Shown here: piece after piece, positions 8,985 to 46,848 of the stretch | How positions within the stretch are numbered: position 1 is the first letter of the stretch | Layout of the letters: each line of letters opens with the position of its first letter | Position numbers and translations under genes: made by a program | The notes under the pieces: model-generated | Told to the model about the DNA's origin: nothing | What the model saw: the letters and a program-made list of their open reading frames with translations, nothing else | The model's database searches: none | From: Halothiobacillaceae bacterium | GTDB taxonomy: Bacteria; Pseudomonadota; Gammaproteobacteria; Halothiobacillales; Halothiobacillaceae | Assembly: GCA_028696185.1 (NCBI GenBank) | Contig: JAQVHL010000003.1 | Span: 1-64,000 of the forward strand | Direction of reading: 5' to 3' | DNA length: 64,000 nucleotides

Positions 8985-9101
8985 AAACGAAGGTTTGTTG
9001 GACAATTCAGCGCCGGACGAAGGATTCCCAGATCCCCCTTGGCGGTCCCAAGGGGGCCCTTCCCTCCGCCCACGCTCGTCCAACAAACCTTCGTTTTGTA
9101 A
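8985..9101. repeat. dispersed repeat copy 1, with 19-bp inverted arms
   Basis: A perfect 19-bp inverted repeat (8985-9003 with 9078-9096, core GGTTTGTTGGAC) flanks a 74-nt spacer containing GGCGGTCCCAAGGGGGC. The right half (9041-9101) is repeated near 33883-33940 (reverse orientation) and 46781-46838 (same orientation). It lies between the convergent ends of the DUF190 gene and the MASE1-GGDEF gene. Confidence 0.85.
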
Positions 9102-9139
9102 ACACACTGAAGACATCCCGCTATTTTCCTTTCGCGGGA

Positions 9140-20702: not shown

Positions 20703-20745
20703 AAAAAAACCCGCAACGCGTGAATTCCGCGTTGCGGGTTTTTTT
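20703..20745. terminator. strong bidirectional terminator between rne and the M48 gene
   Basis: CCCGCAACGCG pairs perfectly with CGCGTTGCGGG around a 7-nt loop, flanked by A7 on the left and T7 on the right. It can terminate transcription from both convergent genes. Confidence 0.95.
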
Positions 20746-32085: not shown

Positions 32086-33729
32086 ATGCCTTCTCTATCG
32101 ATCAAGATGCGCCTGATCCTGCTCACCGTGGTGTTCGTGATCGTCGCCACGTCGATTGCCGGTTTGGGAATCTACGGCATGATGCAGTCCAATCATGCCT
32201 ACAAGGATAACTACGAACGGCGCATGATTCCGCTGTATGAAGTGGAGCGCGTCGGGGGCTCGCTGGTGAAGCTGAGGGCTCAGCTCCTGCTGGGAATGCA
32301 GCATGACCCTAGCGGCGATTTTGTGAAGATGCACGACCATCCCCTGGCCCTGCATCTGGATCAGATCCAAAAGGACCGCGAGGAAATCGACAGGTTATGG
32401 ACGCATTTCATGTCGGTCAGTCATGGCAAGGAAGCGCAAGCCCTGGCAATGAATTTCCAGGGGCTCATGCAACGTTATCTGCGTGAAGTCGAGGTCGCTG
32501 TGGATTTGTTGCGCAAGGGAGAGTATCACCGCTCAAACGAGCATCTTCTGGTGACGATCAACCCCTTGATGCGTGAGTTGAATGAGGCCGAGGTCAAATT
32601 GTCCGAGCGCAAATTGCTTGGTGCACGTGAAGGTCTCGCTCAGGTTGAGCAGGCCTATCGTCAGGAACTGATCTTCTCTATTGGCCTGACCATACTGGGC
32701 GTTCTGGTGGTGCTGATTCTGGCGTTCTGGACCATCAAGCGCCTGCAGGCAGGGGTTGGTGCGCTGAGTTTTGCGGCAGGCCGTCTGGCCGAGGGCGATC
32801 TGACGGTGCGCGTTGAGTATGCCGATCATGACGAGCTGGGGCAGATTGCCGAGGCTTTCAATCGGATGCGCGATGGGATGCGCGACACCATCCATCACAT
32901 TAATGGCGCGGTGGCCCAGTTGGCGGCGGCCGCCGAAGAAACGGCGGCCATCACCGAGCAGACCAATTCTGGTGTGCGCCAGCAGGCCAGCGATACCGAA
33001 TCGGTGGCGGCGGCGATGAACGAGATGAATGCCACCGTGCATGAAGTCGCCGAGAATGCGAGCTCTGCCGCGAGCTCTGCCCAGCGCGCGGACGAGGAAG
33101 CCGAATCGGGCAAGCGGGTGGTTACCCAGACCATCGAGGCGATTACCCAACTGGCACGGGAGGTCGAGCAGGCTGCCGGTGTCATCCATCAGCTGGAAAA
33201 AGAGTCGGAGAGTATCGGATCGGTGGTTGATGTGATCCGTGGCATTGCCGAGCAGACCAACCTGCTGGCGCTCAATGCGGCGATCGAAGCGGCCCGTGCC
33301 GGCGAGCAGGGTCGCGGCTTTGCCGTAGTGGCGGAGGAAGTGCGCTCGCTCGCCAGTCGCACCCAGCAGTCGACCCAGGAAATCCAGGACATGATCGGCC
33401 GTCTGCAGGCCGGTGCCGGTCGTGCCGTGAAGGTCATGCAGGCCAGCCAGCAGCGCGCACAGGAAGGCGTGGAGCAGGTGGGGCATGCCGGTGAGGTGCT
33501 GGCGGCGATTACGACGGCGGTGGGCACCATCAACGACATGAACTTCCATATCGCTAGCGCGGCTGAGGAGCAGAGTGCCGTCGCCGAGGAAATCAACCGC
33601 AATATTGCCAATATCAGCCGTGTGGGGGAGCAGACCTCCCAAGCTGCCCAGCAGACGGCGGTGGCGAGCAGCGAACTGGCGCGTCTTGCGGAGGAGCTCC
33701 AGGTTCGCGTCGGGCGTTTTCGGGTCTGA
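32086..33729 (+). CDS. methyl-accepting chemotaxis protein
   Basis: A 547-residue chemoreceptor: first membrane helix ~7-30, a periplasmic four-helix-bundle sensor (~35-190), second helix ~192-215, a HAMP domain and a cytoplasmic signalling domain with the hairpin tip [20 protein letters not shown]. There is no C-terminal NWETF-type pentapeptide, so methylation enzymes such as the CheR encoded at 57263 must find it without that tether. The ligand is unknown. Confidence 0.94.
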
Positions 33730-33882
33730 AGGCGCTTGAAAAATAGCGCCCCGCAGGGGGCGCTGGCTTGCGTTAACAGGGCGTTTTTCAACGCCCTAAA
33801 CCCTTTTCACAAAGTCGCCCCACGACCGGAGAGTCGCGTTCTTTTTAGGAAAATCTCTGCGGCTTCTGTGAGGGGGCAGAGT

Positions 33883-33940
33883 AAAGGTTTGTTGGACGAC
33901 AGTGGGCGGAGGGAATCGCCCCCTTGGGACCACCATGGCC
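33883..33940 (-). repeat. dispersed repeat copy 2
   Basis: Read on the minus strand this matches copy 1 (9041-9101) through GGTCCCAAGGGGGC, TTCCCTCCGCCCAC and TCGTCCAACAAACCTT with only scattered mismatches. It lies between convergent genes. Confidence 0.85.
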
Positions 33941-34030
33941 GGGGCGGCTCCGACCGGGCCGTCCCGAATTCGAGCGCCGCACCCGTCAGGGCTTGGAGCG
34001 TAGAGGCGCATCACCCCTGCAGCGTACAGA

Positions 34031-34213
34031 CTAGCCGCATTTCTCACACTGGCACGTCACGAGGGGGCCGAGGCGCCGTCGTGGTGCGCCGCACGGAGCG
34101 AGCGGCGCCGAAGGCGTAGCTGACACTACGTCGAGGCGGCGCGAGCGAGTACGGCGTGCCACGGCGAGCGTATCGGCACCCGCAGCAGGGACGGTGTGAG
34201 AAATGCGGGCTAG
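34031..34213. mobile_element. MITE-like element with inverted ends and CTAG duplication
   Basis: The ends CCGCATTTCTCACAC (34035-34049) and GTGTGAGAAATGCGGG (34194-34209) are inverted repeats, differing by one extra G, and both are bordered by CTAG (34031-34034 and 34210-34213 within one base), consistent with a 4-bp target duplication. The 145-bp interior encodes no transposase. The 4-bp duplication and CC-ended termini recall IS1380-type ends, but this assignment is tentative. Confidence 0.6.
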
Positions 34214-34255
34214 CGCCAGTGCCGCCGGATCAATCCGTGCGGAGGTGCTGACGTT

Positions 34256-35119
34256 TCAGTGCAGCAGACCAAACATCCGGCGACGGTTGGCCTGGACCAG
34301 TGGGTGATCGGTACCGAGCATGTCGAACAGGGCAATCAGGCCCTTGCGTCCGGCATCGTCATTGTAGCCGCGGTCACGACGCATGATTTCCAGAAGCTCC
34401 TCAATGGCGCCTTCGTAGTCGCCCTGCATGGCCAGGCGTGCCGAGAGCTGTTCGCGTGTGCCCAGATCGCCCGGTTCTTCCGCAAGACGGGTGCGCAGCG
34501 TGCTGATATCCGGGGTGCCGGCGGCCTGACGGGCAATGTTCAGTTGCGCGCGCAGTTCGCGGGCTTCTTCCGATTCGCGCTTGTCGGCCGGCAGGGCCTG
34601 GAGGATTTCCAGTGCCTCGTCGAGTTGCCCTTCGTTGGCGGTCAGTCGGGCGATGTCGAGCAGCACCTCAGCGTTGTTCGGGTCGAGCTTGTTGGCCTCG
34701 CGCAGAAGCTCCATGGCCTGATCGATGGCGCCGGCGGAATAGACCTGCAGGGCCTTCTGACGCAGCAGGTCGGAGGGGCGCACGACGTGGCGTTCGATGA
34801 TCTTGCGGATTTCGCTTTCCGGTTGCGCACCCATGAATTCGTCGACCTTCTGGCCGTTGCGGAAGACCTGGACGGTCGGCAGGCTGCGGATGCCGTACTG
34901 GGCGGCCAAGTGTTGCTCCTGATCGGTGTCGACATAAGCAAGCTCGATGTCGCCGCCATAGGATTCGACCACTTTTTTCAGCAGCGGCTTGAGCATCTGA
35001 CAGGGGCCGCACCAGGCAGCCCAGAAATCGACGATGACCGGGCGGGTGTAGGAGGTTTCCAGCACGCGCTGCACGAAGTCGGCTTGGGTGACGTCGTGGA
35101 TGTAGGAGGTGGGATTCAT
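34256..35119 (-). CDS. ybbN: co-chaperone/thioredoxin YbbN (CnoX)-like
   Basis: A 287-residue protein with an N-terminal thioredoxin domain (about 8-110) and C-terminal TPR-like repeats (~118-287), the CnoX/YbbN architecture. The active site is WCGPC, with both cysteines retained, unlike the single-cysteine form of E. coli CnoX, so thioredoxin activity is plausible. CnoX holds stress-damaged proteins and passes them to GroEL or DnaK. It is monocistronic between the repeat-rich gap and the yqhA-like gene. Confidence 0.9.
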   Translation of the reverse strand: MNPTSYIHDVTQADFVQRVLETSYTRPVIVDFWAAWCGPCQMLKPLLKKVVESYGGDIELAYVDTDQEQHLAAQYGIRSLPTVQVFRNGQKVDEFMGAQPESEIRKIIERHVVRPSDLLRQKALQVYSAGAIDQAMELLREANKLDPNNAEVLLDIARLTANEGQLDEALEILQALPADKRESEEARELRAQLNIARQAAGTPDISTLRTRLAEEPGDLGTREQLSARLAMQGDYEGAIEELLEIMRRDRGYNDDAGRKGLIALFDMLGTDHPLVQANRRRMFGLLH

Positions 35120-43888: not shown

Positions 43889-44243
43889 GCAGACTCCCGA
43901 AGTGATGTGAATATTTTTGATGGGCCATCATGCCGTCGCAGGGGGCCGGGTCAAGTCGTGGATGCGCATCCTACCGTAATTTCAGCGATTGTTAATATTC
44001 TTCGATTGCGTTAAATTGCCCGGCAGCGCGCAGGCCAGCAGCGCATTCGGGTTTACTTATTGGCGATAAAACTAGTTTTATTGACCGTGACACCCGCGTG
44101 ACGTGAAACTTGCGCCCCAGAAGTCGGCGTCTCGACGTTCGCCTGACCATCGCAGGCTCGATGCGATGGTCAGGCGGGCTCAGGTAACGGCACAACAGGG
44201 GAGTTTCCCTGTGTATCACTTGCTTAGTGTGCAGGAGTGAGTA
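43889..44243. promoter_or_regulatory. moaE-soxC divergent control region
   Basis: This 355-bp gap holds a 16-bp perfect palindrome ATAAAACTAGTTTTAT (44066-44081) and a 15-bp perfect hairpin (CGCCTGACCATCGCA 44140-44154 with TGCGATGGTCAGGCG 44162-44176, 7-nt loop) without a T-run. The palindrome could be an operator for soxC or for both directions; the hairpin would lie in the soxC leader. No matching known motif was identified. Confidence 0.55.
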
Positions 44244-46694: not shown

Positions 46695-46780
46695 CCAAAG
46701 CCCCCCCACGGGACCGCCCTTCGGGCAATCCCTGGCCTGACCTGTTCCAGCCGCGACCCGACTTCCACAGGCCAGTCCAT

Positions 46781-46838
46781 GGCGGTCTCAAAGGGGGGCT
46801 TCCTTACGCCCACGCTCGTCCAACAAGCGTTTTTTGTA
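46781..46838 (+). repeat. dispersed repeat copy 3
   Basis: Aligned without gaps to 9041-9090, about 42 of 50 bases match, including an identical 10-base block CACGCTCGTC followed by CAACAA. It is again between convergent genes (soxD and rpoH). Confidence 0.8.
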
Positions 46839-46848
46839 AAAACCCTCT

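Follow-up and report, generated by a model that had tools for sequence, protein, structure and literature searches.

A palindromic, CTAG-flanked element with the ends of IS1380-family insertion sequences, very probably a MITE, in a Halothiobacillaceae genome

The window analyzed here, a stretch of 64,000 nucleotides from the genome of a Halothiobacillaceae bacterium, carries at positions 34031–34213 a short palindromic element that is very probably an IS1380-family MITE, moved in trans by an ISMaq4-like IS1380 transposase into CTAG-type tetramers. The case is built by sequence comparison, which reveals several copies with common ends, 4-base duplications that match on the two sides, an orthologous interval in another genus from which the element is missing, and full-size IS1380 partners with these ends and this duplication. 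It supports the original prediction, which had proposed a nonautonomous element mobilized by a transposase encoded elsewhere, perhaps of IS1380 type: IS1380-family insertion sequences (ISs) that have the same ends and are bordered by CTAG do exist, in other genomes.

Results

The interval at 34031–34213 consists of CTAG, a 175-base element, and a second CTAG. The left target-site duplication (34031–34034) is followed by the left terminal inverted repeat, CCGCATTTCTCACAC (34035–34049, + strand), which lacks one C relative to its right-hand counterpart, CCCGCATTTCTCACAC as read on the − strand (34194–34209); the right duplication occupies 34210–34213, and the overall layout is CTAG-CCGCATTTCTCACAC ... 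GTGTGAGAAATGCGGG-CTAG. Between the repeats, 34050–34193 is a noncoding interior whose two arms make up a single long, imperfect palindrome, an assignment based on fold z-scores and on covariation across 19 homologs. The tip of the hairpin, GGCGTAG-CTGACA-CTACGTC (34113–34132), is, like the duplications and the right repeat, a direct reading of the sequence. The CTAG borders are thus where they had been predicted, and inverted ends of 15 and 16 bases were likewise recovered, although the single-base difference between them proves to be the missing left C (the sixteenth base) and not a mismatch, the ends being identical at 15/15 positions. The view that the element has no coding content also holds: the open frames extending into it are mechanical, and neither a plausible gene nor a PF13701/NF033539 transposase lies within the 175 bases, so it is not an autonomous member of the IS1380 family. 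It is short (175 bases between the CTAGs) and without a transposase gene, as is expected of a MITE.

Such an arrangement is rare by chance. In dinucleotide-preserving shuffles of the window, perfect inverted pairs of 15 bases within 250 bases of each other occurred 0.02 times on average (maximum 1 across 100 shuffles); the real window contains four places with such pairs, the MITE candidate being one of them. The other three are at 8985–9096, 20703–20745, and 44140–44176. The repeat copy that had been placed within 100 bp of the element was confirmed as a separate dispersed repeat at 33884–33938, whose longer genomic copies match the window as far as 34007. This repeat recurs in the window at 9037–9108 and 46777–46846 and has 49 matches in the genome; because a number of these lie near contig ends, it may break the assembly.

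A full-length DNA search identified one other full copy of the element in the same genome, on contig C8 (L002:1501–1684), with CTAG on both sides, and a covariance-model search gave a count of two as well. The two copies are identical over 178 consecutive bases, including the right CTAG and two bases beyond it, while their flanks differ. Inside the element, all differences are confined to the left terminal repeat, which in the second copy is 16 bases long and carries two substitutions (CTCACATTTCTCACAC). Judging from gene names assigned by reading, the first copy lies between the 3′ ends of chemoreceptor-like and thioredoxin-like genes and the second just upstream of ruvB. Beside the second copy, at about 950–1440 of L002, there is a small two-gene module between ruvA and ruvB that is toxin–antitoxin-like by eye.

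A 176-base relative occupies 40 near-identical places in another genome, G230, and dispersed copies, a hallmark of MITEs, are therefore present both there and, as the pair just described, in the genome of the window. Among 26 G230 loci (29 pairs, with L271 at 677, L281 of 193 bases, and L290 at 269 outside this set), 17 are flanked by CTAG/CTAG, 4 by other matched 4-mers (CTAA/CTAA, TTAG/TTAG, ATAG/ATAG, and CTGG/CTGG), and 4 by unmatched 4-mers, and 1 is cut by a contig end. The matched variants indicate that the four duplicated bases come from the target and not from the element. Target-site duplications of the kind that characterize MITEs are seen at both copies in the window's own genome and in these G230 variants.

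The original prediction had also called for empty sites in relatives, and here the outcome was partial. In G333, which represents another genus of the family to which G230 belongs, the same convergent gene pair that surrounds one G230 copy is present and the element is absent. The matching parts are 354 bases apart in G333 and 543 in G230, a difference that approximates the 180 bases expected from the element together with one CTAG. The aligned G333 junction is without CTAG; as the tetramer is not kept, we regard G333 as an element-free interval and not as a perfect empty site. A further genome of the G230 genus, G106, did not match the query for this convergent-pair copy; at another G230 copy, the flank matches in G106 are 142 instead of 374 bases apart. 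For the first copy of the window's genome, the chemoreceptor/thioredoxin synteny was not seen in family relatives, and with no syntenic relative in the family there is no empty site for this copy.

The whole element is predicted to fold as one hairpin (RNA fold of −118.7 kcal/mol versus a shuffled mean of −77.6; z = −10.6, with 0/200 shuffles as good), and with DNA parameters the z-score is −7.65. It belongs to a length class of 176–177 bases that aligns almost gap-free, within which 22 elements of exactly 176 bases, compared position by position, have median identities of 0.55–0.77. Alignment A2 contains 19 of the 25 elements of 176–177 bases (L001, L034, L070, L103, L031, and L118 were left out as near duplicates or close relatives) and spans 178 columns, with gaps only around L102. 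Its consensus is a single hairpin of 67 pairs in which 86.5% of cells are paired, and 39 of the 67 pairs have changed on both sides. The hairpin scores 0.331 for covariation, compared with 0.139 (SD 0.010) in shuffles, a control that does not preserve relatedness, and with 0.05–0.09 when the partner columns were slid, a control that favors the A2 hairpin because that alignment was also the source of the structure. The TA...TA core of the tip is invariant in the 19 homologs (A2 columns 82–97, pairs 84/95 and 85/94). As judged from this alignment, the full-length hairpin of the 176–177-base class is kept by compensatory changes.

Compensatory change need not mean selection on structure. Template-switch correction is known for quasi-palindromes and would give compensated changes without function, and it is a tenable, if tentative, reading that the element is a MITE as stated whose arms have been kept alike by mutational template switching between them. 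Two observations bear on this. Nearly invariant asymmetric boxes, CTRCTGCG on the left and CTCGYNACG on the right, persist across the 19 A2 sequences, and the changes among the G230 copies are, by eye, mostly isolated single ones. Both mildly favor selection over template-switch correction of the pairing, although both are still compatible with a slow form of such correction.

The distribution of the family is wide and sporadic. A DNA search of 57 related genomes at E 0.001 matched only the window's genome and two genomes from other families (G040 and G035), with 0/26 family relatives matching. Of the 369 genomes of the class, 25 (from 23 of the 272 genera) contain the pattern CTAGCCCGSATTTCTYAC, one of them with as many as 51 + 60 (111) ends; the reversed-pattern control had 0 matches in every row among those listed. 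Similarly, a covariance model of the 176-base class matched 24 of the 369 genomes (22 of the 272 genera). Across a collection of 84,980 species genomes, the pattern CTAGCCCGSATTTCTCAC was present in at least 119 stretches. Since by our own estimate some fifteen single matches are expected by chance in the whole collection, we relied on loci with paired ends. These carry the titles Gammaproteobacteria, Alphaproteobacteria (L105 and L122), a Deltaproteobacterium (L210), Acidobacteria (L193 and L204), Gemmatimonadetes (L102), Phycisphaerae (L116 and L176), Opitutia (L207), and an Actinomycetota bin (L188); because many of the paired-end loci are metagenome bins, single placements among them may be wrong. 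No match to the element was found at the DNA level in plasmid and phage records. Among viral contigs, 12 stretches (L083–L094) carry the CTAG-plus-end pattern, in several cases about 100 bases from the contig end.

Pairing of ends across loci yielded 91 short elements of 47–405 bases, with L123 counted twice via two left ends. Their lengths cluster at 176–177 (25 elements), 159–161 (13 elements), and 238–243 bases (9 elements). Identical 4-mers flank 55 of the 91 on both sides, and in 54 of those 55 the flanks are CTAG/CTAG; the other 36 are without identical 4-mers. The 159–161-base class (L074, L075, L077, L079, L141:688–847, and others) has the same ends and a symmetric hairpin with a different interior, and it is weakly matched by the 176-base model in G078 and G377. 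There are also tiny elements of 47–50 bases (L080 239–288, L132, L142, and L096) that contain little beyond two terminal repeats, which suggests that the ends alone may suffice for mobility.

Many members of the family lie exactly at stop codons. Taking open frames as a rough stand-in for genes, we scored frames of at least 150 codons that run toward the element and end at the TAG of CTAG, in 65 elements bordered by CTAG left and right and with sufficient flanking sequence (123 ends). Such a frame stops at the TAG at 37 of the 123 ends, representing 32 of the 65 elements, whereas the other two frames gave 6/123 and 3/123 ends. Control CTAGs, which were drawn from loci L083–L213 only, had such frames on 88 of 997 strands (p = 6e-10 versus 37/123). 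The enrichment is retained when G230 is removed (23/93 ends, p = 2e-5) and in genome-contig loci alone (14/56, p = 5e-4). At a threshold of 100 codons, both sides qualify in five elements. In L289, the flanks read across the element indicate that two convergent genes would have ended at a single common CTAG, and each gene has its stop restored. The two copies in the window's genome, examined separately from the 65 elements, end no such open frames and are not at stop codons, and no such frames are ended by the autonomous ISs L214, L215, L264, and L265 (L216 is without a right flank). Because the CTAG predates the insertion and the frame already ended there, the adjacent genes are intact and not truncated. 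CTAG, being its own reverse complement, contains a stop codon whichever strand is read, so an element landing at a gene's CTAG stop gives that stop twice and does not alter the protein. Harmless insertion of this type probably explains the survival of many copies exactly at gene ends. IS1380 insertions are described as over-represented between genes (PMC9208149).

A full-length hairpin of 176–177 bases kept by covariation, with many copies directly after stop codons, is also what a host-selected hairpin would look like, be it a terminator, a REP-like site, or a structured RNA, with mobility incidental or ended. The sporadic spread through the class, the lack of matches in family relatives, the many near-identical copies in one genome, and the exact 4-base duplications all argue against this explanation, which we regard as very unlikely. 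Further, Rfam gave no match above the gathering score in 33700–34300, its one subthreshold match (33775–33819) lying outside the element, and the only terminator-like match in 33650–34350 lies outside it too.

The link to IS1380 comes from full-size ISs with the same ends. In L215 (1748 bp) and L216 (1738 bp), an IS1380 gene is located between CCCGCATTTCTCAC ends with CTAG outside both; in L214, the flanks are CTAG/CTTG and the ends contain one mismatch. The transposases of L214–L216 score 393–406 bits against the NCBIfam IS1380 model (cut-off 180) and more than 520 bits against PF13701, over its curated cut-off. Two plasmid elements are bordered by CTAG on both sides as well, an IS1380 element of Stutzerimonas zhaodongensis (L264, 1655 bp) with the ends CCCGCATTTCTCACAG and an ISMaq4-family element on the Methylophaga frappieri plasmid NC_017858.1 (L265, 1559 bp) with the ends CCCGGATTTCTCAT. 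The terminal inverted repeats are thus common to L215, L216, and L264, and nearly to L265, and termini of the type found at the left end of the window element bound the first three. Ends that diverge further, again with CTAG, are found in the related L226 and L244, the reading of L226 being one of several with equal scores. Only part of the IS1380 family fits, since a scripted end search gave no qualifying ends for L266 and L267 (annotated as ISBdi2 and ISPme1) and the IS1380-like L228 has other ends, CCTAGAAAAATCAGTTACC, and a 5-base duplication. An IS5-group MITE like MITEPsy1 of Pseudomonas syringae, which shares with the present family (CTAG, with CTAA and TTAG variants) a 4-nt duplication of CTAG or YTAA (PMC3189936), can be set aside as extremely improbable, because the MITEPsy1 ends, GGAAGGTCTGAAAAAGCC (PMC3189936), are unlike CCCGSATTTCTCAC, the window element does not have ends of MITEPsy1/ISPsy2 type, and the full-size ISs that do have its ends encode IS1380 transposases.

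With the MITEs, these ISs share only the terminal 14–16 bases, and words from the IS subterminal regions matched 1 of the 91 short elements. By its interior, the element seems to belong to a separate, conserved hairpin lineage and does not resemble an internally deleted form of the ISs described here. Three candidate progenitors or partners were rejected. L227 (1245–3007, in G184) has an IS1380-like gene inside CTAG-bounded ends (CCCGCTTTTCTCAC) with the same subterminal sequence as the 176-base class. An end resembling the L228 terminus, CCTAGAAAAATCAGTTACC, occurs within L227, and the two transposases are similar; we therefore interpret L227 as containing an IS from a different branch, bearing L228-like ends, that looks nested centrally in a small CTAG-bounded hairpin MITE. 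L064 (G081:C6) is a CTAG-bounded stretch whose ends, identical to those of the family and separated by 1795 bp, enclose an IS110/IS1111-type transposase gene; since its right end matches the L214–L216 subterminal sequence by eye, it is read as an IS1380 relic with another IS inside. Between the ends of L063, which are 1625 bp apart, lie another short element and open frames of ordinary appearance.

Genomes that carry the ends encode the transposase more often than noncarriers do. PF13701 exceeded the curated cut-off in 11 of 25 carrier genomes versus 6 of 75 noncarriers (Fisher p = 1.5e-4), the latter hand-picked from 344 pattern-negative genomes, with complete ones favored, and not random. 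The contrast weakens to 12/25 versus 13/75 when E 0.001 is used in place of the curated cut-off, with 13 of the 25 carriers giving no PF13701 match at this threshold. The genome of the window has no PF13701 match at E 0.001, and its copies therefore look like orphans. They were probably acquired horizontally, and their partner IS is absent, lost, or in sequence missing from the 112-contig assembly. The searches that had been suggested, for other copies and for an IS with matching termini, thus yielded a second copy in the same genome and ISs with matching ends in other genomes, none in its own by PF13701 at E 0.001; the combination named as counting against the prediction, absence of any further copy and of an IS with matching ends, was not what we found.

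Discussion

Collectively, these analyses suggest how the element may have moved. An ISMaq4-like IS1380 transposase, supplied in trans, would recognize the 14–16-base ends CCCGSATTTCTCAC, would cut the element out or copy it, and would insert it into CTAG, or less often into CTAA, TTAG, ATAG, or CTGG, with duplication of those four bases. We infer that an IS1380 transposase acts on the MITE and that the copies in the genome of the window came with, or from, an IS-bearing host.

A bolder proposal, which we consider possible and advance only tentatively, is that the 176-base hairpin is a selected, ancient working part, and that these MITEs represent a structured parasite lineage of IS1380 transposases that crosses phyla with a fixed length and a fold maintained by compensatory change, and that occupies a safe niche at CTAG stops. 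If the safe-site niche is real, the target duplication would restore the stop codon at a single gene end, or the stops of two convergent genes, at no cost in protein sequence. The stop-codon sites illustrate one way in which a transposable element can insert beside genes harmlessly. A widespread MITE family with the ends of the CTAG-targeting branch provides a handle on what IS1380 transposases recognize, and its fixed-length, covarying hairpin raises the question of whether the folded shape is part of the transposition mechanism or a by-product. ISEcp1, a member of the IS1380 family, mobilizes resistance genes (PMC9330008). Of the 3397 plasmid records with an IS1380-like match, 40 matches were listed, and 26 of these are annotated with ISEcp1 or ISEc9.

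In the openly licensed literature, searches for IS1380 together with MITE and for CTAG together with stop codons gave no description of an IS1380-type MITE among the matches listed, although an ISfinder entry or another description may exist. The end sequences had one match, an unrelated rat paper, and ISMaq4 had none. The available portions of PMC3542288, PMC3281130, PMC10813416, PMC9208149, and PMC9330008 likewise contain no description of an IS1380-type MITE that we could find.

Several known systems resemble the window element in part. MITEPsy1, an IS5-type element of P. syringae whose mobility has been demonstrated, is also small and noncoding and duplicates 4 nt, CTAG or YTAA, but it has different ends and a different presumed transposase, that of ISPsy2 (PMC3189936). 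MITEPye1 of Paracoccus yeei is similar in its low copy number, its long stem–loop, and its presumed mobilization in trans; it differs in its IS1182-type ends, and neither cross-phylum distribution nor covariation is mentioned for it in the available portion of the source (PMC11578231). The Tn3-derived TIMEs of Pseudomonas are likewise nonautonomous and rely on the ends of a larger transposon, whereas those ends are of Tn3 type, the duplications are of 5–6 bases, and the length is 262 bp (PMC4133298). The ISMaq4 group, represented by the M. frappieri plasmid element, shares with the window element the CTAG duplication and ends of the same family (CCCGGATTTCTCAT compared with CCCGCATTTCTCAC). 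The ISMaq4-family element, however, is 1559 bp long and contains a transposase gene, while the window element has 175 bases, no gene, and an unrelated, palindromic interior.
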